From a virus: DNA of 21,666 nt. The notes under the pieces are model-generated. The model was not told the DNA's origin. It saw only the letters and a list, made by a program, of their open reading frames with translations, and did no database searches. Positions 1 through 21,235 of this stretch are shown here, one piece after another. The translations under genes were made by a program, and so were the position numbers. The stretch covers positions 1-21,666 of IMG/VR virus record IMGVR_UViG_3300032294_003025, one strand, 5' to 3'. Each line of letters starts with the position of its first letter. Position 1 is the stretch's first letter.

Positions 1-482
1 AACCGCTAGTTCCACTCGAACCAGAACTACCACTTGTCCCTGATGAACCACTTGTACCAGAGCTACCACTTATTCCTGATGAGCCAGATGTACCTGATGA
101 ACCACTTATTCCTGATGAGCCAGATGTTCCTGATGAACCACTTATTCCTGATGAGCCAGATGTTCCTGAGCTTCCACTTGTACCTGATGAACCCGCCTTA
201 CCAGATGAACCAGAACTTCCACTTGTACCAGATGAACCAGAACTTCCACTTGTACCTGATGAGCCAGATGTTCCAGAGCTTCCACTTGTACCTGATGAGC
301 CAGATGTTCCAGAGCTTCCACTTGTACCTGATGAACCCGCCTTACCAGATGAACCAGAGCTTCCACTTGTACCCGATGAACCAGCAGAACCAGATGTTCC
401 ACTTGAGCCAGAACTTCCTGATTTTCCGGATGAACCAGAAGAACCTGAAGTACCGCTTGACCCTGAAGAACCAGAGCTTCCA
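1..482 (-). repeat. Gly-X-Y coding tandem repeat with 36-nt local units
   Basis: The coding repeat is also a DNA repeat. A 36-nt unit (12 codons) is tandemly duplicated at 84-119 and 120-155 with one mismatch, and another at 264-299 and 300-335 with one mismatch. A roughly 50-nt block containing the rare Gly-Lys-Ala triplet occurs at 181 and again at 325, nearly identical, 144 nt apart (16 triplets). Near-identity at the DNA level, including codon choice, suggests recent duplication by slippage or recombination rather than only protein-level selection. Confidence 0.85.
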
Positions 483-1024
483 GAGCCAGCTCCACCTAAA
501 CTAATTCTATTCCACCCTGTTTGTAAGGTTGTGCCTGTGTTGATTGCGTCTGAACCGAAGTCCGCAATTATTGTCGCATCACTTACATCATATCCTACGA
601 CTACATCTACTGTAGTTCCATTAACGTCTACTTGTGTTCCTGGGTTTAACGCAATATCACCATTACTTTCAGCAGCATTCCATTTATCAGGGTAATCTAC
701 AATATAAAATACGTAAAATGAATTTTCCTCAATCACATAGACAAGCATACCAATTTTTCTTCTACCACTTGTCAATTGGTCACCCTCAATAATCAATAAT
801 GAACCCTCAAATTCTATCGGAATATTTGTCAGATTAAGGTCGGAAATACTGTAAACGGACATGTACCCACCCGCAACAAACATATCGTATGTAACAGGTA
901 CACTCGAACCTAATTGAACTGCGGTACCTGGAGCGTATGGTGCAAATCCAGCATTAAACCCTAATCCTCCATCAAACCATGTGGATTCCGAATCTTGCTG
1001 AGGTAATTGAAAATTAAATGGCAT
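1..1024 (-). CDS. Collagen-like tail fibre/adhesin, C-terminus missing (partial)
   Basis: Reading on the minus strand from the ATG at 1024, the frame stays open for 341 codons to the window edge, so the C-terminus is missing. Residues 1-176 form a non-repetitive, aromatic- and Gly-rich head that I do not recognise. From residue 182 there is an unbroken run of about 53 Gly-X-Y triplets, with X mostly Ser or Thr, sometimes Lys or Ile, and Y mostly Ser, sometimes Ala. This is collagen-like periodicity without proline. Collagen-like stretches are known in phage tail fibres, where they form trimeric shafts. The gene starts 21 nt after the stop of the Thr/Pro-rich protein and is the last visible gene of the tail cluster, so a fibre or host-contact role is inferred. 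AGGA lies only 2 nt before the ATG, too close for a classical ribosome binding site. Forward-strand and other-frame ORFs here are shadows of the repeat. Confidence 0.8.
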   Translation of the reverse strand, partial: MPFNFQLPQQDSESTWFDGGLGFNAGFAPYAPGTAVQLGSSVPVTYDMFVAGGYMSVYSISDLNLTNIPIEFEGSLLIIEGDQLTSGRRKIGMLVYVIEENSFYVFYIVDYPDKWNAAESNGDIALNPGTQVDVNGTTVDVVVGYDVSDATIIADFGSDAINTGTTLQTGWNRISLGGAGSGSSGSSGSSGTSGSSGSSGKSGSSGSSGTSGSAGSSGTSGSSGSSGKAGSSGTSGSSGTSGSSGTSGSSGTSGSSGTSGSSGSSGTSGSSGSSGKAGSSGTSGSSGTSGSSGISGSSGTSGSSGISGSSGTSGSSGISGSSGTSGSSGTSGSSGSSGTSG

Positions 1025-1045
1025 TTCCTATAATTATAATAATAA

Positions 1046-2380
1046 TCAAATTAATGTGCCTCCTCTAAAGAAAATATTTGTATTGTTTTGAGTAATTCTT
1101 AACCCCGTATTAGTAAAGCTAGAGTAAACTCTATAAACACCGTTAGGAATATTTGTACCTCCCGTATAATTAAAAACAATTGATGACATATTAGTTCTTT
1201 GCGTAACTTGAGTCGTTCCTGTTGGTGAATTGAATAATCTAACAAGAGTATTATATCTTTGGGTTCCTGTTGCCCCTGTGGGTATTATCCAAGTATACCA
1301 TCCAGCAACACCATTTGGTGTTGTAGTCCCTGAAAGAACACGAGTTGTTGTCATCCTGTTTGCAACAATGGGAATGCCATACGCATCAACTCCTCTTGTT
1401 ATATTATATGTTGTACCAGTTCTGATTGATGGTTCTGTAACACCCCATCCAGAATATCTGACATATGAATTCATTTGACGATTAAATGTCGTGGTGTTGT
1501 TTAATGTTGGAGAATTAATATTGAACCCTCTAAAGGTACTACCTTGTGCCAACATATAGTTGTCTAATTGTGTCCTGACTGCCGCTTGGTTTGAATCAAT
1601 AAACAAGAAAGAAACAAATTCGACCGCAGGTGTTAGACTTGGAGTAACTGTATTTGTAGGTGTAATTGTTGGAGTTGGAGTTGTAGTTTCAGTTACTGAA
1701 GGAGTTGGAGTTTGTGAAGAGGTTTGAGTAGGTGTAGTTGTTTGTGTTGGAGTTGCGGTCTCTGTTACAGATGGAGTTGGTGTACCTGTTTCAGTTGGAG
1801 TTGGAGTTTGAGTTGGGGTTTCTGTCGGTGTTTCTGTATTAGTCGGTGTACTAGTAGGTGTCTCTGTATTAGTGGGTGTACTGGTAGGTGTTGTTGTTGG
1901 AGTTTCCGTTTGGGTTGGTGTTGGTGTTGAGGTTGCACCAAGTGAAAGTGTAACTGTTGGGGTTGGTGTTGATGTTGGTGTTGATGTTGGTGACTCACAT
2001 GGTGGTTGTGGGGTTTGAGCAGGAGTTCTCGAAGGTGTGGGTACGGGAGGGGTTTTAGTAGGGGTAGGAGTTGTTGTGGATGTTGGTGTTTGACTTGTTG
2101 TTGGTGTGTTTGATGGAGTTGTTGAGGGAGTTAAAAAAGGTGTATTCGTTGTTGTTGGAGTTGGTGATGGTAAAATGTAAAGATATTCTTCTATTGTACA
2201 ATTCGCCGAATCTGTAATTTTAACTATAAAGTTTTGATTATCGTATGGTGAGGGCACATCGAAAAAATATGGAAAAGTTGTAACACTTGCAACGAACACA
2301 CAATTTGCACTCATAGAATCACAATAGTAGACTTGTGCTGGTGTATTACCTGTAAAACTTATTATCTCTACTCTTGTCAT
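1046..2380 (-). CDS. Tail-associated protein with Thr/Pro-rich mucin-like stalk
   Basis: A protein of 444 residues if started at the ATG at 2380. A TTG start at 2389 is possible, but the ATG forms an ATGA overlap with the stop of the upstream gene and is preferred. Three parts are visible: an N-terminal domain (about residues 1-70, Cys at 20, 27 and 61) with a VKITDSxxC segment resembling the end of the SprB-like repeats in the neighbouring gene; a linker of about 180 residues (71-251) made almost only of Thr, Pro and Ser in TPT/TPTxTPT patterns with one Cys; and a C-terminal domain of about 190 residues rich in Thr, Asn, Gly and aromatics, which I do not recognise. The layout, anchor then extended stalk then head, suggests a fibre or spike with the C-terminal domain displayed outward. 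That role is inferred from architecture and from its place between two other repeat proteins. Confidence 0.8.
1628..2170 (-). repeat. Thr/Pro-rich (TPT) low-complexity coding repeat
   Basis: On the minus strand this stretch repeats ACN-CCN-ACN codons and encodes about 180 residues of Thr/Pro/Ser. On the plus strand it appears as gtt-gga/ggt repeats, which produce spurious Cys/Trp-rich and His/Gln-rich ORFs in other frames. The linker is likely extended and rod-like. The repeat is degenerate, mixing [15 protein letters not shown] and similar phrases, rather than a perfect tandem array. Confidence 0.8.
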
Positions 2381-4509
2381 TGCTCGCAAATTATGTCGTA
2401 ACTAATCAACAAATCTACCGTTAGTTGTTGACTATTTAATGGACCATCAGGTGCCGCTTGAATTGTTATTTGATTTGAGAATTCATTTACCGTCACAGTT
2501 TGAATCCCCGGTATAGTAAGTATCAACGTTCTCACTGTTGTGAGCCATAAACTATCTGACGGTGGTAATAAAAGTGACGTAGTTGTATAAAACTCACTCT
2601 CGTACACATCCCCCGCAGGTTGAACTAAAACTCGTGCGGTAAATGTTGCCGAACTCAAAGTGCAACCACTATTGGATTGTGTTAAATCATAAAACCCTTG
2701 ATTTAACATTTGTAGTAAACCACATTTAGTTCCATTTGTTAATTGGAACAGTTCACTACCCATTGAATATACTTGGTAAGAAACATAACTTGAGTCACAA
2801 GTTATTTCAGTTGTTCTTTGTAGAGTACATCCACTACTATCTATAATTGAAACTGAATAAGTTCCTGCAGTCAATCCTGTAACCGTAATAGTTTGAGGAT
2901 TGTTTGGTACATTAGGAGACCAACTAAATGTAAATGGTGGTACACCTGATGAAATAAACGAGGTTATTGTTCCACCACTTCCACTTCCACAAGATGATGA
3001 ATATAAACTGAAGGAAATTGGTTCAGAATAATCAACATAAAATTGATTAGAGATTGAACATCCGTCAGCATCGACAACTGAGACCGTGTGAAAACCTGAT
3101 GAAACATTTGTGAATGTTACTGCAGATTGTGTAGTGTCTAATATTTGTGTTGTATTATCTAAAATATAATCAAAAGGTGATGTACCTCCTGAACTTTTGA
3201 GAACTCTAACCACTGCGTTTGAACCACCGCAAGTTGCTCCCGTAATTTGTGTTGAAATATCGAACTTATTTGTTGCTAATATTGTTTCTTCTTCTTGATA
3301 CGAACAACCTGAACTATCACTAACAACAACTGTGTAAGTACCCGCAGTTAAATTTGTAAAATCTTGAGAAGTACTCAAGGTGGATACTGAAGTTGTGTTT
3401 GATGTTGGGTATATCAACGTATATGTATACGGTGTAGTTCCTCCAACAACATCTATTGAAATTGAACCATCGTTTTGAGAACAATTTGAATTTGTACTAT
3501 TAATCGCAACCGAAGTCATTCCGTTAGGTGGGACTAATTGAGCTGTTTCAGTTATACTACAAAAACCTGAGTCAGTAACTTTAATTGTGACCGCACCTGC
3601 AGTCAATCCTGTAACAGTAAATGTTTTAGCATATGATATTTGAAAAGCTCCTGTGGACGCCGAATAAAAATAAGGTACAGTTCCACCAGTAATAACCATA
3701 GTTATTGACCCATTATTTTGAAAACAAGTAGGTTGACTAACTATAAAATTGCCAAACCCGATTGGGTCGACTTTTGGTACTGTAAAACTCTTGCTTAGAA
3801 CACAACCAACATAATCTGTCACCGTAACACTATAAACACCTTCAGTCAATCCAGTAATTGTATCACCTGTCTGACCATTATTCCAAAGGTAAGTGTAAGG
3901 ATAAAATCCTGTCTGTCCTGTTATATATATTTTTCCTATTGCAGAACCACCACAAGATGAATTTGGAACAACATATGCACCATAATCAAATGGAGTTGAG
4001 TCACCAATTACCATAGTTTGACTTTGTCCCGTACAACCTCCTAAATCAAGTACTGTAACATAATAAGTCCCAGCACTCAGACTATCGAAATTTACAAAGT
4101 TTGTGTTTGTGGTTGCAGAATTAACTAGTGTTCCTGCAGATGTATAAAGATAAAAATTAGTCGAAGAGTAATTCGAACTTGAACTTGCACTTATTGAACC
4201 GTTGTCTAAATCACATGTTGTATTAAAAACATTAGTTATGTCAGTACATACACCGCTTGATACGGGTATATTAACCAAAAATTGAAGGTTTGTAGGTAAA
4301 GTACTATCACTAACCCTAACACTGTAAGTTTGAGCATTTAGTCCAGTTCTAATTGATGGGAAAGTTGTGATATTATCAAACCCTAAATTAGGAATTTCCC
4401 ACGTTACGATATAAGGTGGTGTTCCTCCGAAGGGAAGGATACTTATACTTCCAGATGAATTACTTTCACAATCACCTGTAATCAATATGGTATAATTAAA
4501 TTCAGCCAT
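2377..4509 (-). CDS. Tail protein with seven SprB-like adhesin repeats
   Basis: This 710-residue protein carries about seven repeats of 75-80 residues (about residues 12-571). Each contains an NGSI-type strand, a GGTxPYxYxW-like segment, a GLTAGTYxVxVxD turn and a GC near its end. This matches the SprB repeat family found in Flavobacteriia surface adhesins used in gliding. Clear examples are [17 protein letters not shown] and [17 protein letters not shown]. The last 140 residues (571-710) are not a repeat and align without gaps at several positions with the C-terminus of the upstream 992-residue protein. There is no signal peptide or membrane segment, which fits a virion component better than a cellular adhesin. 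The ATG overlaps the previous stop by 8 nt (ATGGCTGA) and the stop overlaps the next start by 4 nt. A tail-tip or fibre role is inferred. Confidence 0.85.
2797..4476 (-). repeat. Seven degenerate SprB-like repeats (protein level)
   Basis: Approximate repeat boundaries in the encoded protein are residues 12-85, 86-168, 172-245, 250-327, 331-411, 415-494 and 497-571. Similarity is clear in the protein (Gly-Thr/Pro-Tyr core, LTAGTY turn, terminal Gly-Cys) but weak in the DNA, so these are old, diverged repeats, unlike the nearly identical collagen-like repeat at the left edge. The first two copies are the least regular. Confidence 0.75.
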
Positions 4510-7480
4510 TACAACTTATTTCTATATTTATACCCACGTTTAGGAACAAATTCTCACCAATGTTTATTGGTGTCATTGTTAAATTATATATAGTCAAATC
4601 ATTACCATTTAGAAAATATCCCAAATTGTATTCCGTCAATTGTGGTAAGTTATTTATAAGAGCAGTTCTCCATGCAATATTTGTCGGAACATCTGTGGGA
4701 CCAAACCCTGTATAGAATTGTTCTTGGATTATTATTTCATTACCAAGTCTTAAATCAACGTACCAATTCGATTTCAAAGAATTTAACACACAATCAGTTA
4801 TTAATAAACCTTGTGATGTTAAAAAATTATTCAACCTATTGTTTAATATTGCACTGAAATTTGAAACATTGATGTCCCCATTTAACCAAGGATATATTGA
4901 AAAGTCAACAAACTCCCTACTACATGTGTAATCAAAAATATTTGATATTATGTAACAAGATTGTATTGGTACTGGTACAAACTCACATCCTCTCTGTCTT
5001 CTATAAACAAATTTTTGTCTATGGAATATTGAGTTCTCATATTTAATCCCCGATGTCCATATTGTTGTTGCAGGAACCATTTGTTCCACAAGTTTCATCC
5101 AATAAGGACCTAAACCCTCAACATAGTCAATTAACTTTTGATATGTGTATTTGTTATTTGGAATACCCACAGTCTGTTGAGATTCGATGTATTTCCAAAA
5201 TATAGATTGTAGTGTTGGGTACCCTCCAGTCTTTCCATCAGTAATGAATTGTCTGTTTCTTGTGTTGATTGTATTTTGCCAAAATGTTTGGAGAAATTCA
5301 AAGAACGTTTTCTTTTTTGGTTCAGGATTTATATACGTACTATCAATACCACCAGGTGTTACGAAAGTCGCACTAAAACCTGATTCAGGAATCGGATAAT
5401 CAAATTTCACAGATTCATCCCAAACATCGTAAGCTAACCCTTGTCCAGGATTTAACGCTATTTCAACATTTTTGGCATTTAATACTAATTTTTCATTATC
5501 AACGAAATAATATGCATTATAATTTCCTTGTTTAGATATTCTTATTTTTTCATCGTCCGCCAACCAAGATTTATTATTATCAACGATTTTTCTAAGTTTG
5601 AACCCTTCTGTCATGTAAGGGAATTGTCTATATAAATCCAAATAAATTTGACCGTATGTAAAAGGTTGAAGTTGGGTCTGTATGTTGTAATTTTGTCCAG
5701 TGAAGATTGCACCTGTCACAACTACCTCATCAGGACTTCTGTGTTGTGGTGTAACTTGGTACCAACCAGCACCTTTCTGAAAAAACATATTTTCATTTGG
5801 TGTTGGTGCATTTGGAAATCCTTCGGCATCAACAGGATAATCAGCTCTGTCCACATTAACTTCTTGGTATATGTCTGTGACAGTAAAAGCAGTATAAAGT
5901 TGTCCCTTAATTTTGTAAGTGTCGCCAGGTAATAATGAAGGTAATTCTTGAACATATGTTCCTCCTGAAATTGCAGCATATTGACTATTGAACACCTCCA
6001 TGTTTATTTTTTGGTCAGCCAAATAAATGTGTTCGTTAAATTCTACTAACGAGTCGGGAGCACCTATTAGTCTCAAAAGAAACTCTATCGACCTTCTTGT
6101 ACCTTTCGATTTGAATAGGTATGCTGAATTCAAAATCAAATTTCTATAAAACTGATAATTCAACTCTGTTGGAGTCAAACTTCTTGAAAATCCTGGAAAC
6201 TCATTTATTGCTTGATTTCCGAAAACACTTTCTAAAAAATTACCATCCGCGATTGGAGAAAAATTTGAAGACCAACCTAATGTTCTTGCCAAATTAACTA
6301 GTAATTGTGATGGTATGTCGTTTGCGGGTACATAATCAACTGAAGTCATGTATGCCAACCCGTCAATGAATATTTTTATTTGGTCGAAACTTCTTCCGTA
6401 TATTTGGAATATTTTTTCTACCTTTTGACCTAAAGTATCGAACTCTTTCAAAGAACCTGAAACTAAGAATCTTGATAATAAATTAGTTTTGAAGTCATCC
6501 ATGTTGACTGCAATCGATTCCAATTTCTCAAGATAGTTGTCGAATCCTATTGACCTAATATCCAAATTCCATGTTCCGTCTTTCGGCCATGTAACTATTT
6601 GATTTGATAGATAAAACTGTCCAAAGTCGTCTTGAAGAGGGACTTGGAATTCTGCAGTATACTCTGGTCTAACTAATCTATTTGCCAAGTATTTTTCAAT
6701 AACATCAAAGTTTTCTTCAAATACTTTGTCTACTGTCATGTTATTAGGTCTAATAACAAAATCCTGAAAATATGTTGAAGCTGTTGTTCCAAAAGGTGCC
6801 CCTGACACGTAAAAAGAAATTGACCCTGATGTGAGTGATTGTGATGGTGTGAAGGATTCAATTTGATATTCAACTCCGTCAATGTGTATTGCGTAATCTA
6901 AGTACGTCTTGTGTAAGTTTCTGTACCTAGAAACTTCCATCTCCCTCAATTGCAAATTGGTTGTTGCATTTACAGAATAATCTATTTCAAAAGGATTGTT
7001 AATCCTACTAACATTTACTTCAAAATATGTCTCATTATTTATAGAGTCAAAAGAAATATTTGTAGCTGTAGCTCCTGTGGTGAAGTTAATTTGTGAAAAG
7101 AGAACATCCAATCCTGCGGGGAAATAATTAATTATTTTTGTTACTGAAACACTAAACCTTTTTGCTAGTGAGCCATATAATGAAAAATTACCTACTTGTG
7201 AAACATCAAAATTTGGAAAAACTCTGAATTGAGATTCTAATATTCTATCACCTTCTAAAGTAGAATTTAATTGTAAATTTTCTAAACTTATCGGAGTTGA
7301 AAATGCACCGACATTAAAAGTCCTATTAACTTTTTCAGCAACAGATGTTGTAAACTCAAAATTTCCTTGGGTCAAACCTCCTCCATTAACCGTTTGTAAT
7401 CCGACGATTTCATCCGAAAATGTACCCGCTCCATTACCAGGTCTCGGAGGATAAAAATATTTTTGTCTTGTTGACGCCAT
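4502..7480 (-). CDS. Large baseplate/tail protein with tail-protein-I-like motif
   Basis: A 992-residue protein. Around residues 446-474 it has a helix-like block with FKSKGTRRSIEFLLRLIGAP. This resembles the 'YRxRGTrxgLexlLrl' block of phage tail protein I/gpI and the tail_TIGR02242 families, which are baseplate components. The N-terminal 300 residues look beta-rich and are not recognised. After residue 480 there is a long mixed region, then a Cys-containing segment near 830-855, and a 140-residue C-terminal domain (853-992) shared with the next protein. The start ATG overlaps the preceding stop in TAATG (1 nt) and the stop overlaps the next start by 8 nt. The baseplate role is inferred from the motif and position. 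It could act as the third wedge component beside the gp6-like protein or as a fibre-attachment adaptor. Confidence 0.75.
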   Translation of the reverse strand: MASTRQKYFYPPRPGNGAGTFSDEIVGLQTVNGGGLTQGNFEFTTSVAEKVNRTFNVGAFSTPISLENLQLNSTLEGDRILESQFRVFPNFDVSQVGNFSLYGSLAKRFSVSVTKIINYFPAGLDVLFSQINFTTGATATNISFDSINNETYFEVNVSRINNPFEIDYSVNATTNLQLREMEVSRYRNLHKTYLDYAIHIDGVEYQIESFTPSQSLTSGSISFYVSGAPFGTTASTYFQDFVIRPNNMTVDKVFEENFDVIEKYLANRLVRPEYTAEFQVPLQDDFGQFYLSNQIVTWPKDGTWNLDIRSIGFDNYLEKLESIAVNMDDFKTNLLSRFLVSGSLKEFDTLGQKVEKIFQIYGRSFDQIKIFIDGLAYMTSVDYVPANDIPSQLLVNLARTLGWSSNFSPIADGNFLESVFGNQAINEFPGFSRSLTPTELNYQFYRNLILNSAYLFKSKGTRRSIEFLLRLIGAPDSLVEFNEHIYLADQKINMEVFNSQYAAISGGTYVQELPSLLPGDTYKIKGQLYTAFTVTDIYQEVNVDRADYPVDAEGFPNAPTPNENMFFQKGAGWYQVTPQHRSPDEVVVTGAIFTGQNYNIQTQLQPFTYGQIYLDLYRQFPYMTEGFKLRKIVDNNKSWLADDEKIRISKQGNYNAYYFVDNEKLVLNAKNVEIALNPGQGLAYDVWDESVKFDYPIPESGFSATFVTPGGIDSTYINPEPKKKTFFEFLQTFWQNTINTRNRQFITDGKTGGYPTLQSIFWKYIESQQTVGIPNNKYTYQKLIDYVEGLGPYWMKLVEQMVPATTIWTSGIKYENSIFHRQKFVYRRQRGCEFVPVPIQSCYIISNIFDYTCSREFVDFSIYPWLNGDINVSNFSAILNNRLNNFLTSQGLLITDCVLNSLKSNWYVDLRLGNEIIIQEQFYTGFGPTDVPTNIAWRTALINNLPQLTEYNLGYFLNGNDLTIYNLTMTPINIGENLFLNVGINIEISCNG

Positions 7481-8388
7481 TAGCTAGTTATTGTGTTAAA
7501 ATTCTTACTGAAATCTATATTGTTTCCTCTACTTTCTCTAACCTCGTACAACAACGCATTAAATTGGTCTCTAATCTCGTATAAGTTGTATTGTCTGTAG
7601 ATATTATTAGCAGAATCATAAATTGTATAAATGCCGTCGTCAATTGATTTAGTCTGATTACCGTATAGAGCAATCGCAAGTGATGAAATATCGTATTCAA
7701 CCATTTCCACCTCAATTGTAACTGGATTGAAGTATGTGTTAGTTATAATAATATCTTGGTCAGGCTGACCTATAAATGGTGTTGCGTTAGGTTTGTTGGT
7801 TGGTGATGAAGATGGTGATACGGTCAAGAACAATAAATTTGTTTGTCCATCAACATATCTATATCTAATAGCCTTTTGTGAGGTATTAACTTGATTAGTA
7901 ATCACAGGCTCACAATAAAAACATGAAGTAACTATTCTAAAAAAATTAGGGATTTTAGAACCGTCGGCATTTAGATATTCTATTCTAAATCCAACTAATC
8001 CTTGGGGGACAAATTTATTCAAGAAATTTGATGGTACGTTGGATAGGTCAATTACTAAACCTTTAACGTTTGGTAATGCACTAAGAACACCACAATCAGT
8101 TATTGTTGTTCTGATTTGTGCAGGTCTCAAATATAATGTATATATTCCTAATTGATTAAACTCATCTGCAGGTAATGTTAAATTATATAATCCACCTAAA
8201 ATTTCAACTCCATTGTTTCCTCCAGTCTCGGAGTTATTGAAGTAAGGTCTTAATATTGTTGGAGCGTCCAACGTTTTCAACACAAAAGAATTAGTAACAT
8301 CTCGAGATGGTGTGTAGTTCAAAATAATCTCTACATCATCTGGTGAGACATCACTTGGTCTAAGTGTTCCATATGTTCCTATTGCCAT
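7480..8388 (-). CDS. Uncharacterised tail/baseplate protein (302 aa)
   Basis: I do not recognise a family. The protein is beta-rich in appearance, with no signal peptide or membrane segment. A CFYCEP motif near residue 156 is preceded by a short hydrophobic strand; two close cysteines could bind a metal or form a disulfide. It starts with ATG behind an A/T-rich leader (AATATAAAAAAATGG) with no Shine-Dalgarno, 26 nt after the previous stop, one of the few real gaps inside the cluster. Its TAA shares one base with the ATG of the 992-residue gene, so the two are probably translationally coupled. A virion structural role is inferred from position only. Confidence 0.75.
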   Translation of the reverse strand: MAIGTYGTLRPSDVSPDDVEIILNYTPSRDVTNSFVLKTLDAPTILRPYFNNSETGGNNGVEILGGLYNLTLPADEFNQLGIYTLYLRPAQIRTTITDCGVLSALPNVKGLVIDLSNVPSNFLNKFVPQGLVGFRIEYLNADGSKIPNFFRIVTSCFYCEPVITNQVNTSQKAIRYRYVDGQTNLLFLTVSPSSSPTNKPNATPFIGQPDQDIIITNTYFNPVTIEVEMVEYDISSLAIALYGNQTKSIDDGIYTIYDSANNIYRQYNLYEIRDQFNALLYEVRESRGNNIDFSKNFNTITS

Positions 8389-16838: not shown

Positions 16839-18677
16839 TTAAGAAAGAGTTGTGTTTTGGAAATTCTTAACGCTCACTCTGATGTCTCTTGTTGGGTACC
16901 TAATTTGATAAACCTGACTCGGTTCTGCAAAAATTGTATCATCAACAGGTCTTATTTGTCTTGTCTCACTATTTGAGTACGCCATAGAAGTTTCAAATGA
17001 AGAATATTGTCCTCCAACATTATTGAATACCTCCATTCCTGCAACAGTTATAACACCATTTTGATTTTGAATGATACTTCTTATTTCGGATAGATATACG
17101 TTTTGTCCCAATTCTCTAAACAATGGATTAAAATACTCTGAAACTTTATTAACAATATCAGTAATAATTTGTCCTGAGTTTTGAGTTGTACTTAAAACAA
17201 CAGAAACTTCTATACTTAAGTCAATTACTTTAGCTGTCTCAATAGATATATAATCATTCATCATTCTATAGTTCGACAGATAATTTGCAATGTTTTGTCT
17301 TAATGTATTCGATACAATACTTGTAAGTTTTCCTTGTGAGTCGTAAGACAATATTTGAATTAATATCTTATTATTATTTTCTGTTATTGCGACTTTAGCC
17401 GGTGCACCGAATTCCGCGGGCATGTTTCTAATTATTGATTCGTAGTCAGAAACTGTAACCGCTCTTTTTTGTGCTGCGAAGTTAAATGAAACGTAATTTC
17501 TAATTTCTTCTGTGGTAGGTTGATTTGCACCTCCAATAGCCGCAGTCACATTCACACATCTCAAGGAATTGATTACTGAGTTGTTTGTTGATTCCGAAGG
17601 TCCGTTTACATAAAAAGTTACATCACCAACTTGATTAATTATATTTGTACCTAAGTTAGTTCCTAATCCACCACCCACTCTGTATTGAACAAACAAAGTA
17701 GAGTTTGGTACAAGAGCTGAACCAAGTGAAAAATTGTTGAGGTAATTTTGGATATTGAGAGGTCCTCCCAAATTTGTAAACAAATTTAATTGGTCTTGTG
17801 ATGAGGTCGTTCCTCCACCAAAAGTCATTTTTTTGAAACCTTCAGGTGTAAATTCAGAAATGAATCTATTATTAGTTTGAATGTACCTTCCAACTTTTAT
17901 CCCTGGTTGGTCTGATACTTTAGTTGGGTCTTCTACAAAAATTCTATCTTCAGCCAACGCATCAACTTCAAACCATCTATTTGCTGCACCTAAAAATTCT
18001 GCAACTGTAGGTACATTTGTATAGTCTGTTCCATTTTTTAACAAAACACTGGTAATACCTAAAACATTTTTTTCAGGTAAAAATAACTCGAAGAATGGTC
18101 TAACATCGTTAGGTGAAATTACTCTTTTGAATACTTTTGTAATTCCATTAACAACCAATTCTCTTTTTGTTATTGTATAATTCACAATTACATTATTCGA
18201 ATTGAAGTTAGGTATTTTTAATCTATTTGGATACCCTTGAGCATTATACGGAGAAGCAAAATCAATATCATATACGTTCTCAAATACTATTCCCGCCCCT
18301 GTAACTTGCGAGCCTCTAACTAACTGTCCCAAATATCTTTCGTCTTCTTTGTCACCAAATGCGGGCACTGTTATGGAAAAATCAACCAATGAAACTGAAG
18401 GTCTTTGTCCAGGTATTTTAAGTCCGTATGTTCTAGCTATGTTATATATAGATGACCTCTGCTGAGCATATTGTAAAACAGTTTCCTGTATACTCCTATC
18501 AATATGATAATGAAGATTATCCGCAACAGCTGCATTCAAATCCAAAAACACAGAGAATACAGACGCGTCGTTAAAATCTTGAATTAAATCAGGATAATAA
18601 GTTTGAACATAATTCAATAACTCGGCTCTGATTCCTTGATAATCTCGGACCGTATAAGATATTCTATTGTTTGCCAT
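16839..18677 (-). CDS. gp6: Baseplate wedge protein, gp6/baseplate J-like
   Basis: A 612-residue protein matching the gp6/J family of contractile tails in length (T4 gp6 is 660) and in its N-terminal pattern: an opening YTVRDYQGIRAELLNYVQ block, then DASVFSVFLDLNAAVADNLHYH and an AQQRSSIYNIARTYGLKIPG segment, the helical part that in T4-like phages precedes the beta-domains. The middle contains a KKMTFGGG motif typical of J-like proteins. A repetitive V-x-V-x-DYE segment near 420-430 corresponds to the conserved core that joins wedges into the baseplate ring. It starts 6 nt after the gp25-like stop, with AGAAG just before the ATG. In T4 and in R-type pyocins this protein forms the wedge triplex and the inter-wedge ring. 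Assignment is from pattern recognition, not a database search. Confidence 0.9.
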   Translation of the reverse strand: MANNRISYTVRDYQGIRAELLNYVQTYYPDLIQDFNDASVFSVFLDLNAAVADNLHYHIDRSIQETVLQYAQQRSSIYNIARTYGLKIPGQRPSVSLVDFSITVPAFGDKEDERYLGQLVRGSQVTGAGIVFENVYDIDFASPYNAQGYPNRLKIPNFNSNNVIVNYTITKRELVVNGITKVFKRVISPNDVRPFFELFLPEKNVLGITSVLLKNGTDYTNVPTVAEFLGAANRWFEVDALAEDRIFVEDPTKVSDQPGIKVGRYIQTNNRFISEFTPEGFKKMTFGGGTTSSQDQLNLFTNLGGPLNIQNYLNNFSLGSALVPNSTLFVQYRVGGGLGTNLGTNIINQVGDVTFYVNGPSESTNNSVINSLRCVNVTAAIGGANQPTTEEIRNYVSFNFAAQKRAVTVSDYESIIRNMPAEFGAPAKVAITENNNKILIQILSYDSQGKLTSIVSNTLRQNIANYLSNYRMMNDYISIETAKVIDLSIEVSVVLSTTQNSGQIITDIVNKVSEYFNPLFRELGQNVYLSEIRSIIQNQNGVITVAGMEVFNNVGGQYSSFETSMAYSNSETRQIRPVDDTIFAEPSQVYQIRYPTRDIRVSVKNFQNTTLS

Positions 18678-18683
18678 CTTCTA

Positions 18684-19154
18684 TTAAATATTGATTATAA
18701 CAAAATCAGATTGAGCAAAGACTGAATTACTCGATGAATAATCAATCCTAACTTTTGCAGTATATTCACTTGTGTTTTTTCCTGGAACCCTGTAAATGTC
18801 AAAAACTTGATTTCCTCCCGCGGTTGTAACGTAGTCACCATCGACCTCGTCCTCCGGTGTTATTGGTTCAATTGAAATATTATTTACAATTAAATTTGGT
18901 AAGTAGGTTGAAATTGAGTCTCTTATATCTGATTCTAAAGCCGAGAAAGTTAATCCGTCAAAAGGTTCAAATATATATTCATATAGTCTTGTTCCAAAAT
19001 CAGGAAGAAAGTATCTTGACCCTTTCCTTGTAAGTAATAAATGGATTAAGTCTGACCTTATCTCTTGCTGTTCATACTCAGTCAATCCCAAATAATCACC
19101 TCTTTGTGAATCTTGGAATGGAAAAAAGAGACCGTAAGTAATACCGTTTGCCAT
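18684..19154 (-). CDS. gp25: Baseplate wedge protein, gp25/GPW-like sheath initiator
   Basis: A 156-residue protein with the GPW_gp25 family core: LLTRKGSRYFLPDFGTRLYEYIFEP at about residues 40-64, where the R-x-x-x-PDFGTRL-x-x-x-x-FEP pattern is the family hallmark, followed by the amphipathic helix ALESDIRDSISTYLPNL. T4 gp25 is 132 residues, so this one is slightly longer at the C-terminus. The protein starts the tail sheath and joins it to the wedges. The ATG has an A/T-only leader (TTTATTTAATATGG). It lies 20 nt after the DUF5522 stop and 6 nt before the gp6-like gene, the same gp25-then-gp6 order seen in many contractile phages. Confidence 0.92.
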   Translation of the reverse strand: MANGITYGLFFPFQDSQRGDYLGLTEYEQQEIRSDLIHLLLTRKGSRYFLPDFGTRLYEYIFEPFDGLTFSALESDIRDSISTYLPNLIVNNISIEPITPEDEVDGDYVTTAGGNQVFDIYRVPGKNTSEYTAKVRIDYSSSNSVFAQSDFVIINI

Positions 19155-19174: not shown

Positions 19175-19372
19175 CTATTTTTCAACTAAAGTGGTATTAC
19201 CCTTTAATCCTTTAGGTTCATATGGACAATGTCTACATCCCCCATGAGAACCACAACAATGACCTCTTCGTATGTGATACTCTTCGGTAAAAACTACTCT
19301 GTTATTCTCCACGTAATAATCAGAAGGGAGAATCTCATTTGGATTCTCCCTTTCTTTATTTGTATTTTCCAT
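19175..19372 (-). CDS. DUF5522-like cysteine-rich mini-protein
   Basis: A 65-residue protein whose second half fits the DUF5522 family: VVFTEEYHIRRGHCCGSHGGCRHCPYEPKG. Usual members read close to FTExYHlxRGxCCxxGCRHCPYG; here two extra residues seem to sit between the CC pair and the next Cys. Cysteines 39, 40, 46 and 49 with nearby His suggest a small metal-binding knuckle, but no biochemical role is known. The family is typical of Bacteroidota, supporting that host group. The gene begins 6 nt after the ribonucleotide reductase stop and ends 20 nt before the gp25-like gene. Its first 15 codons are variable sequence and carry a strong hairpin. Possible roles include metal delivery or redox support of the reductase, which is only inference from adjacency. 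Confidence 0.85.
   Translation of the reverse strand: MENTNKERENPNEILPSDYYVENNRVVFTEEYHIRRGHCCGSHGGCRHCPYEPKGLKGNTTLVEK
19324..19352. repeat. Perfect 11-bp inverted repeat (hairpin) in the DUF5522 start region
   Basis: AAGGGAGAATC at 19324-19334 pairs perfectly with GATTCTCCCTT at 19342-19352 across a 7-nt loop. In the mRNA (minus strand) it covers codons 7-17 of the DUF5522 gene, and no T-run follows, so it is not a normal terminator in that direction. On the plus strand it is followed by a T-rich run (to about 19368) and would look like an intrinsic terminator, but no gene is transcribed that way here. It may act as an mRNA processing, stability or translation-damping structure between the reductase and the baseplate genes. 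Confidence 0.7.
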
Positions 19373-19378
19373 AGGTTT

Positions 19379-21235
19379 TTATACTAAAACACATGCTCCG
19401 CCAGCACAAGCCAACTCACCACTTAAATCAGTTTCATCTTCAAGTTCAACGATTTTAGACAAGTCAACTTCATGTAAGGTCTGCATTAATTCATCATACT
19501 TTTCTTTGGTACAATCTTCGAAAGGTGCCTGGATATAACTACCCCCATCATATGGTAATACCGATAGTCCATTGTAGTGGTCTCTATTTTCCCACATCCA
19601 CTCACCTACTGCAGGCCATTCGTGTTCACGAATAGAAACTGTTGCAGATACGTTATGAGAATTACTACCACTTCTGTGACCTGGCTTAATCCAATCAACA
19701 TGAACTTTCTTAACTCTTTCAAGAAGTTGAATCGGTGATTCATTTCTCAAAATAGAACCTTCTGGAGCTTTTTGAGGAATACCAATCACTGCAGTATCAT
19801 GTGGTCTGAAGTATTCATCTTCAATAAGTTCAGGATGGTTTTCTTTGAGGTATGTATAAATTGATTCGTTCTTTCCAACCCTAACTCTTCTGATATAGTA
19901 CTCATTATGCCAAGCATGAATTCCTGATGATGTACCAAGTGTCAACGAAGTTGTACCTGCTGGTTTAACCGTTGTCGTTCTAGCCGCAGGATTTATACCA
20001 AGAAGTTCAGCAACCCTTTTATTTTCTTCTTTAACAATTTTTGATGCTGCTTTCATGTCCAACTTCAAAACAGCACCTGACCCTATACCTGTCATTGACA
20101 CCCCAATCAAAGCATCTTTCTCAGTTGTTCTTTGCCAAATAGGTCTTAAATAATGGAAGTTAGTATAACCAGCTTGTAGTGTACCACAGAAAGCCGCAGC
20201 TCTAACTCTATCTTCATAGTCTTCTTGTGATACTACATTTGATACATTCACCTCTGTTAAATTACAGAATTGGAATGGTCTCAATGCGATTTCACAACAA
20301 GGATTGGTTCCCCAATCTTTATCGTTAGTTAAGTAAATACCGGGTTCACCAGCTCCGCTTGCTTCAATTCTCTTCCAAAGGTCCATGAAGTAATCTTTTG
20401 TAATTTTGTGTCGGAGCAACACAGCCGAGTTATTAGCTCTACCTCTTTGTGGATTTGTTTCCCACCAAGCACCTGACTTACAACCAATCATTTCATCATC
20501 AGTTGCCGAGAACAATGAAATAAGTGCAGCTCTTCTGATACCACCTGCCAATACTGCATCTGCAATATGACAAACCATATCATGTACTTCGATAGCTCTT
20601 AATTTTTCACCATTTTCTTTAGCGTCCAAAATACCTTCAAGTTTAATGAGACATTCTTTCAATGGTTGAGGTCCAGGAGCCTTTCCACCTGAAGTAACAA
20701 GTCTTGCACCTTTTGGTCTGATGTCACTGAAATCAAATTCAATTTGTGAACCACCAAAGAAGTAAGATTTTACCAAAATTTTGACAGCGTCTGCCCATCC
20801 TTCAATAGAGTCAGCAACTAACCATCTTCTTTTTCTTTCTTTATTTGGTTTTAGAATTTCAGGAAGTGTTTCAACATGATGTTTTTGAACAGAATATCCT
20901 ACACCCGTTCCACCTAACAACAAGAACATGATTTCAGAAAAAACTCTCCAATCATCAATTGGTGCGAAAGCGCAGTTATAAATTCTGTTTGGTGAGATTT
21001 CAATTGGTTTACCTGCAAACTGCATTGACCTCATTGATGGGAGAACTTGTTTCTTAAAAACATACATGTAGTTCTCTCTTATTTCTTTTTCTAAATTTGG
21101 AAACTGCTTAATATGCATCTCCATGTTTCTTGTGACTAGTTCTTGCCACGTCTCTCTTCTGTTCAACTCAGGAATAAATTTTGCATACTTCATGTATACT
21201 GTAATATCACTGAGTATTCTGTTTGAAATGTCCAT
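19379..21235 (-). CDS. nrdJ: Adenosylcobalamin-dependent (class II) ribonucleotide reductase
   Basis: A 618-residue enzyme that reduces ribonucleotides to deoxyribonucleotides using coenzyme B12, feeding phage DNA synthesis. Residues match the monomeric RTPR type: substrate-reducing Cys88 in YNCAF and Cys324 in FCNLTEV; the NxCxE motif with Asn311, thiyl-radical Cys313 and Glu315; and a C-terminal CxxxxC pair (Cys610, Cys615) that re-reduces the active site. Spacing agrees with Lactobacillus RTPR: 11 residues between the radical Cys and its partner, and five between the C-terminal cysteines. Also visible are a GGTGVGYS segment and KPAGTTSLTLGTSSGIH, the phosphate-binding loop. The Lactobacillus enzyme is about 739 residues, so this is a compact form. 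The ATG follows an A-rich leader without Shine-Dalgarno, 126 nt after the helicase fragment. Class II needs no oxygen and no NrdB subunit, and none is seen. Confidence 0.95.
   Translation of the reverse strand: MDISNRILSDITVYMKYAKFIPELNRRETWQELVTRNMEMHIKQFPNLEKEIRENYMYVFKKQVLPSMRSMQFAGKPIEISPNRIYNCAFAPIDDWRVFSEIMFLLLGGTGVGYSVQKHHVETLPEILKPNKERKRRWLVADSIEGWADAVKILVKSYFFGGSQIEFDFSDIRPKGARLVTSGGKAPGPQPLKECLIKLEGILDAKENGEKLRAIEVHDMVCHIADAVLAGGIRRAALISLFSATDDEMIGCKSGAWWETNPQRGRANNSAVLLRHKITKDYFMDLWKRIEASGAGEPGIYLTNDKDWGTNPCCEIALRPFQFCNLTEVNVSNVVSQEDYEDRVRAAAFCGTLQAGYTNFHYLRPIWQRTTEKDALIGVSMTGIGSGAVLKLDMKAASKIVKEENKRVAELLGINPAARTTTVKPAGTTSLTLGTSSGIHAWHNEYYIRRVRVGKNESIYTYLKENHPELIEDEYFRPHDTAVIGIPQKAPEGSILRNESPIQLLERVKKVHVDWIKPGHRSGSNSHNVSATVSIREHEWPAVGEWMWENRDHYNGLSVLPYDGGSYIQAPFEDCTKEKYDELMQTLHEVDLSKIVELEDETDLSGELACAGGACVLV

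Follow-up and report, generated by a model that had tools for sequence, protein, structure and literature searches.

A 710-aa protein with seven tandem SprB-type repeats is encoded within a phage baseplate gene block in the 21,666-nt stretch of viral DNA analyzed here (IMG/VR record IMGVR_UViG_3300032294_003025, positions 1 to 21,666; referred to below as the window). The protein is probably an ancient seven-SprB-domain structural rod of the baseplate or of the fiber base, carrying variable adhesins further out and acting as a spacer, not as the component that chooses the receptor. The following features were assigned:

1..1045 (approximate), minus strand: beginning of a collagen-like protein with Gly-Ser-Ser/Thr repeats, cut off by the end of the contig, predicted from L007:11498-14482 and low-complexity ORFs
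1046..2380, minus strand: 444-aa protein, candidate adhesin, with a short N-terminal domain bearing a weak SprB-like signature, a Thr-Pro-rich linker and a C-terminal head
2377..4509, minus strand: SprB-repeat protein of 710 aa, predicted virion structural protein (ORF; Pfam SprB; kept in related loci)
2788..4509, minus strand: seven SprB/Ig-like repeats, R1 (residues 1-90 of the 710-aa protein), R2 (91-171), R3 (172-252), R4 (253-334), R5 (335-416), R6 (417-500) and R7 (501-574) (shuffles, profile comparison, AlphaFold2 beta-sandwiches, Foldseek match to GhpA)
2377..2796, minus strand: C-terminal alpha/beta domain (residues 572-710; from the model), lacking the SprB signature, candidate attachment or multimerization domain
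4502..7480, minus strand: 992-aa baseplate-module protein, directly upstream (profile match, E=1.2e-10; synteny)
7480..8388, minus strand: 302-aa protein, the most conserved of the block (median identity 83%)
16839..18677, minus strand: gp6/baseplate J-like wedge protein (Pfam Baseplate_J, 4e-7; PHROG baseplate wedge, 1.8e-22)
18684..19154, minus strand: gp25-like baseplate wedge protein (Pfam GPW_gp25, 1.1e-10)

According to the ORF listing, the 710-aa gene starts with the ATG at 4509 and stops at 2377 on the minus strand. It overlaps the 992-aa gene by 8 nt (4502-4509) and the downstream gene by 4 nt (2377-2380, provided that the latter starts at the ATG at 2380), as the preliminary description of this DNA had stated. 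The repeats span residues from about 5 to 571, are diverged and measure 74-90 aa each; the non-repeat C-terminal domain follows. The interval originally given for the array, 2797-4476 (residues 12-571), thus covers repeats and leaves out the first residues of the array as well as the C-terminal domain. Each repeat has a cysteine near its start, and R2-R7 also have Gly-Cys or a similar pair near the end. The signature reported earlier (GGTxPY, GLTAGTY..V.D and GC) is real and clearest in R3, R4, R5 and R7, but it is only partial in R1, R2 and R6.

In most of the 21 pairwise repeat comparisons the real score beat all 200 shuffles; the exceptions were R1-R2, where 48/200 shuffles reached it, R1-R6 (5/200), R2-R4 (3/200) and R2-R3 (1/200). 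Profile-profile comparison joined R1-R7 into one family. SprB (PF13573) is by far the best Pfam family for the protein (E=1.6e-23; it scores 82.5 bits where the cut-off is 28), a SprB search of the window returned five separate significant repeat matches, and all 41 aligned homologues match SprB (E <= 0.001). The presence of seven SprB repeats in the gene is borne out by these Pfam matches together with the repeat comparisons.

The gp25 and gp6 homologues in the window and the conserved synteny confirm that these host-type repeats lie within a phage baseplate/tail block. By profile comparison the 992-aa protein is related to the large protein encoded after gp6 by Microcystis phage Mel-JY01 (1.2e-10), and more weakly to the counterpart in Flavobacterium immuto phages. 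No SprB match was found in immuto, Mel-JY01 or LR756508, which are phage relatives outside the clade, and its absence from the first two indicates that the SprB part is specific to the clade. The C-terminal domains of the 992-aa protein (window 4502-4980) and of the 710-aa protein (window 2377-2796) align end to end and are perhaps a shared assembly domain; we do not claim homology between them, since the hhalign P was 0.16 and became 0.012 with more sequences.

With a profile of the 992-aa gene, and likewise with one of the 302-aa gene, more than 500 viral contigs were matched, and the best 80 of each were taken, giving about 130 distinct contigs with ~30 common to both sets. Among the loci from these sets that contain the 992-aa gene, the SprB gene adjoins it in 146/158; the SprB start lies no more than ~12 nt from the 992-aa stop, and the two genes often overlap. 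Of the other 12 loci, 11 are on contigs that end at most 148 nt past the 992-aa gene. In the remaining one (L174) the 992-aa homologue is intact, but the gene after it (L174:11884-12873) encodes an unrelated cysteine-rich protein; this is a true replacement, so the SprB part is replaceable. Neither the 992-aa nor the 302-aa gene matched anything in annotated phages (isolated relatives), and tblastn detected SprB in no isolated phage, the only matches being in two uncultured huge phages. All 18 larger contigs examined contain SprB matches, several of them with a second SprB-bearing gene elsewhere. Such a second gene, with Thr-Pro linkers, lies at L188:1379-4228 (homologues at L189:211-2700 and L190:798-2573); in contig G008 it is located about 20 kb downstream.

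The length of the protein hardly changes: 118 of 132 complete copies measure 708-717 aa, and across 41 homologues R2, R3, R4, R5 and R7 show zero length change. Repeat cysteines are in register in nearly all of the 39 representatives; in one of them, L079, two are missing. Measured against the window copy, median identity is 55.6% for the SprB protein and 53-60% for four neighboring block genes; the 992-aa gene (69%) and the 302-aa gene (83%) are both above the SprB protein. In the closest pair, where dS is near saturation, the SprB gene has a dN/dS of about 0.04, a sign of purifying selection, and the downstream gene one of about 0.09. Invariant length, cysteines and position combined with a baseplate-like divergence are what is expected of a structural rod.

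According to the proposed mechanism, the clade would consist of contractile-tailed phages whose 710-aa gene encodes a virion structural protein. Its seven SprB-type Ig-like domains, ending in the alpha/beta domain, would form a rod of fixed length that assembles on the baseplate beside the 992-aa protein encoded just before it. The resulting stalk or fiber base would carry the products of the genes that follow, exchangeable adhesins in the form of Thr-Pro-linked heads and collagen-like fibers; the SprB domains would serve as a spacer that owes its stiffness to conserved cysteine pairs, with the choice of receptor made elsewhere. We infer the virion/tail location from gene order only, and the stalk role and the disulfide bonding of the repeats are likewise predictions.

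Receptor binders of tailed phages are usually variable, whereas the 710-aa protein keeps its length, its cysteines and its seven repeats in more than 100 contigs. Variability is seen instead in the genes next to and downstream of the SprB gene, which are thus better receptor-binding candidates. In addition, repeat number differs widely among host-type SprB proteins (14 versus 45). It is therefore unlikely that the 710-aa protein is itself the receptor-binding adhesin, with SprB domains that bind host surface glycans or cell-surface partners. What keeps this explanation alive is that SprB acts as an adhesin in Bacteroidota (PMC12635249) and that gut phages of Bacteroidota have Ig-like proteins (mainly BACON and PKD) whose display on another phage led to epithelial-cell binding (PMC13370021). 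A conserved binding face on surface-exposed residues of the 710-aa protein is possible.

The next gene downstream, encoding the 444-aa protein, was found in 15/80 loci and is variable between phages; its product has no Pfam match. In a relative it is followed by a collagen-like homologue (L007:11498-14482), and downstream of the SprB gene relatives encode a collagen-like protein as well as Thr-Pro-linked proteins whose heads differ. In four contigs (L043, L051, L077 and L099) a Thr-Pro linker and extra sequence are fused after the C-terminal domain of the SprB protein, which suggests that this end points towards the adhesins. A beta-propeller was suspected by eye as the extra domain of L051; Pfam gave no match and we do not claim it. 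On contig L187, a 1899-aa collagen-like protein (L187:1101-6800; PF01391, 8e-210) with a non-repeat C-terminal domain is encoded downstream of the SprB gene, and minus-strand genes of the adhesin island (L187:6849-12144) resemble, by eye, glycosyltransferases and methyltransferases.

The structure of the 710-aa protein was predicted with AlphaFold2 from 41 sequences, resulting in seven beta-sandwiches with a mean pLDDT of 82.4; the pTM of 0.34 makes the model uninformative on the domain arrangement along the chain. The three best Foldseek matches in the PDB all belong to GhpA, with which Aureispira (Bacteroidota) forms its grappling hooks, with values from 1.1e-21 to 1.1e-17, the top match being the neck/base of GhpA over 710 alignment columns (1.1e-21). 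GhpA shares the tandem Ig-like domains and is the best match of the whole model; it differs in being a 5898-aa cellular protein with 19% identity in the structural alignment. The Ig-like beta-sandwich fold is thus supported by the model and by the matches to GhpA and to Ig/FnIII arrays. VIA-align also placed GhpA among its top rows, interspersed with fibronectin-type arrays, so that the structural comparison speaks more strongly for an Ig-like fold than for any particular relative. The SprB search and the structure prediction had been set beforehand as the tests on which the SprB assignment could fail; a SprB match was found and the predicted fold is Ig-like. Modeled alone, the C-terminal domain reached a pLDDT of 85.9 and a pTM of 0.80, and Foldseek against the PDB gave no match to it below 0.001. 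Its best VIA-align matches, the little-finger domains of Y-family DNA polymerases (Z 8.4, rmsd 3.5, 112 aligned), are read as a common alpha/beta arrangement and not as a function.

To which proteins the repeats are related was addressed by sequence comparisons. In a plasmid collection searched by tblastn, relatives of the 710-aa protein were found in Bacteroidota only, the best match being a T9SS type A protein of Runella (plasmid of Runella sp. SP2; 8e-30, 30% identity over 584 aa). A profile built solely from phage repeats detected 45 repeats in this Runella protein (best domain E 1.7e-20) and 14 repeats in an adhesin of the 642-kb phage LR756502. In a tree of phage and bacterial repeats, the phage repeats cluster by position (R1-R7) across phages, while the deep branches are weakly supported. 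This grouping indicates that the seven-repeat array is older than the phage clade; each repeat position is orthologous across it, in line with the early view that the acquisition was not recent. The phage repeats and those of Bacteroidota T9SS adhesins have a common ancestry. Most probably the SprB domain came from a Bacteroidota host before the phage clade diversified, a direction of transfer that we infer.

The domains could also be generic Ig/PKD-like virion decoration domains, merely SprB-like and arisen within phages as in Hoc, neck whiskers and T5 pb10. A PDB sequence search with the whole 710-aa protein or the alignment found nothing; in a profile search, the PDB entries ranking highest come from phages, namely gp24 of the neck whiskers (2.3e-9), a Hoc protein (6.4e-7) and a decoration protein (7e-6), with GhpA behind them (0.015). 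The PHROG matches are to 'virion structural protein' and, weakly, to 'Hoc-like head decoration' (2.4e-6) and head/packaging. However, the PDB contains very few SprB proteins, so that a ranking with phage proteins first is biased and the repeat matches in Runella and LR756502 were weighted higher; the phage profile aligns with complete repeats of bacterial T9SS proteins at E values down to 1e-20, and SprB leads the Pfam families by a wide distance. An origin as decoration domains within phages is therefore quite improbable, even though SprB is not sharply delimited from other Ig-like virion domains. T4-type Hoc, T5 pb10, neck whiskers and the BACON/PKD gut-phage adhesins resemble the 710-aa protein in profile matches and as virion-displayed Ig-like domains, but they belong to other Ig-like subfamilies, and none was found with seven SprB repeats in a baseplate block.

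With the SprB proteins of Bacteroidota, such as SprB of F. johnsoniae and the Runella T9SS adhesin, the phage protein shares PF13573 and Ig-like repeats of ~70-80 aa. It differs from them in having exactly seven repeats, in starting at the first repeat, in lacking a T9SS sorting domain and in being encoded in a baseplate block. The N-terminus opens directly with repeat 1, with no signal-peptide pattern seen by eye, and a search of the 710-aa protein for the T9SS sorting domains TIGR04131 and TIGR04183 gave only a sub-threshold internal TIGR04183 match (110-153) in R2. A different type of protein is the adhesin of LR756502.1, an uncultured phage of 642 kb (L011:9784-14796): its 1670 aa comprise a signal-peptide-like start, 13-14 SprB repeats, PKD and a T9SS type B sorting domain (TIGR04131, 2.4e-13). 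Unlike the 710-aa protein, it has all the parts of a host-type exported adhesin, and it is encoded by a huge phage.

The preliminary description had suggested that the repeats bind the same glycans as the host adhesin or the gliding machinery. This idea is not upheld: the protein has no T9SS sorting domain, its rigid conservation looks structural, and variable adhesin-like genes lie immediately downstream. It is highly improbable that the SprB part, fixed in the tail, directly engages the T9SS/gliding apparatus or host SprB filaments, with adsorption exploiting moving surface adhesins. Decoration of the capsid or neck instead of the baseplate or fibers, to which the weak Hoc-like and head/packaging PHROG matches would point, is very improbable, given that the gene has a fixed place in the baseplate block, flanked by the 992-aa gene on one side and the adhesin genes on the other.

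Ig-like domains are familiar components of phage virions and have mostly been described as variable, dispensable decorations or adhesins. A protein of an uncultured Caudovirales phage (A0A6J5LD72, UniProt/BFVD; 714 aa, 34% identity, full-length structural match 1.6e-59) very probably belongs to the same family as the 710-aa protein and bears the name 'SprB repeat' by automatic annotation only. Among the open-access papers surveyed, none was found to describe a SprB/PF13573 phage family. While Ig-like virion proteins and this automatic name were already known, the SprB type fixed in a baseplate block appears to be new. Across a large group of phages that are uncultured and in some cases have large genomes, a surface-adhesin repeat of Bacteroidota is now nearly invariant in the baseplate module, an example of an adhesin domain from bacteria that has been fixed in what is probably a component of the virion. 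The SprB gene can serve as a sequence marker for finding the clade, and the structural-rod reading suggests that host range is set by the variable genes beside it.

The host is likely a member of the Bacteroidota, judging from the sequences, since SprB and the nearest homologues come from this phylum. The 992-aa and 302-aa profiles gave no confirmed match in a bacterial genome collection, and Bacteroidota-type promoters yielded a few scattered, uninformative matches in the window. Next to the baseplate genes, a 65-aa DUF5522 protein (window 19175-19372; PF17653, 5.9e-15) is encoded between them and a B12-type ribonucleotide reductase (window 19379-21235). The reductase shows 68.5% identity to that of Microcystis phage Mel-JY01 and >60% to those of Vibrio and Oceanospirillum phages; it is far closer to other phages than the baseplate genes are, and was thus possibly exchanged between phages.
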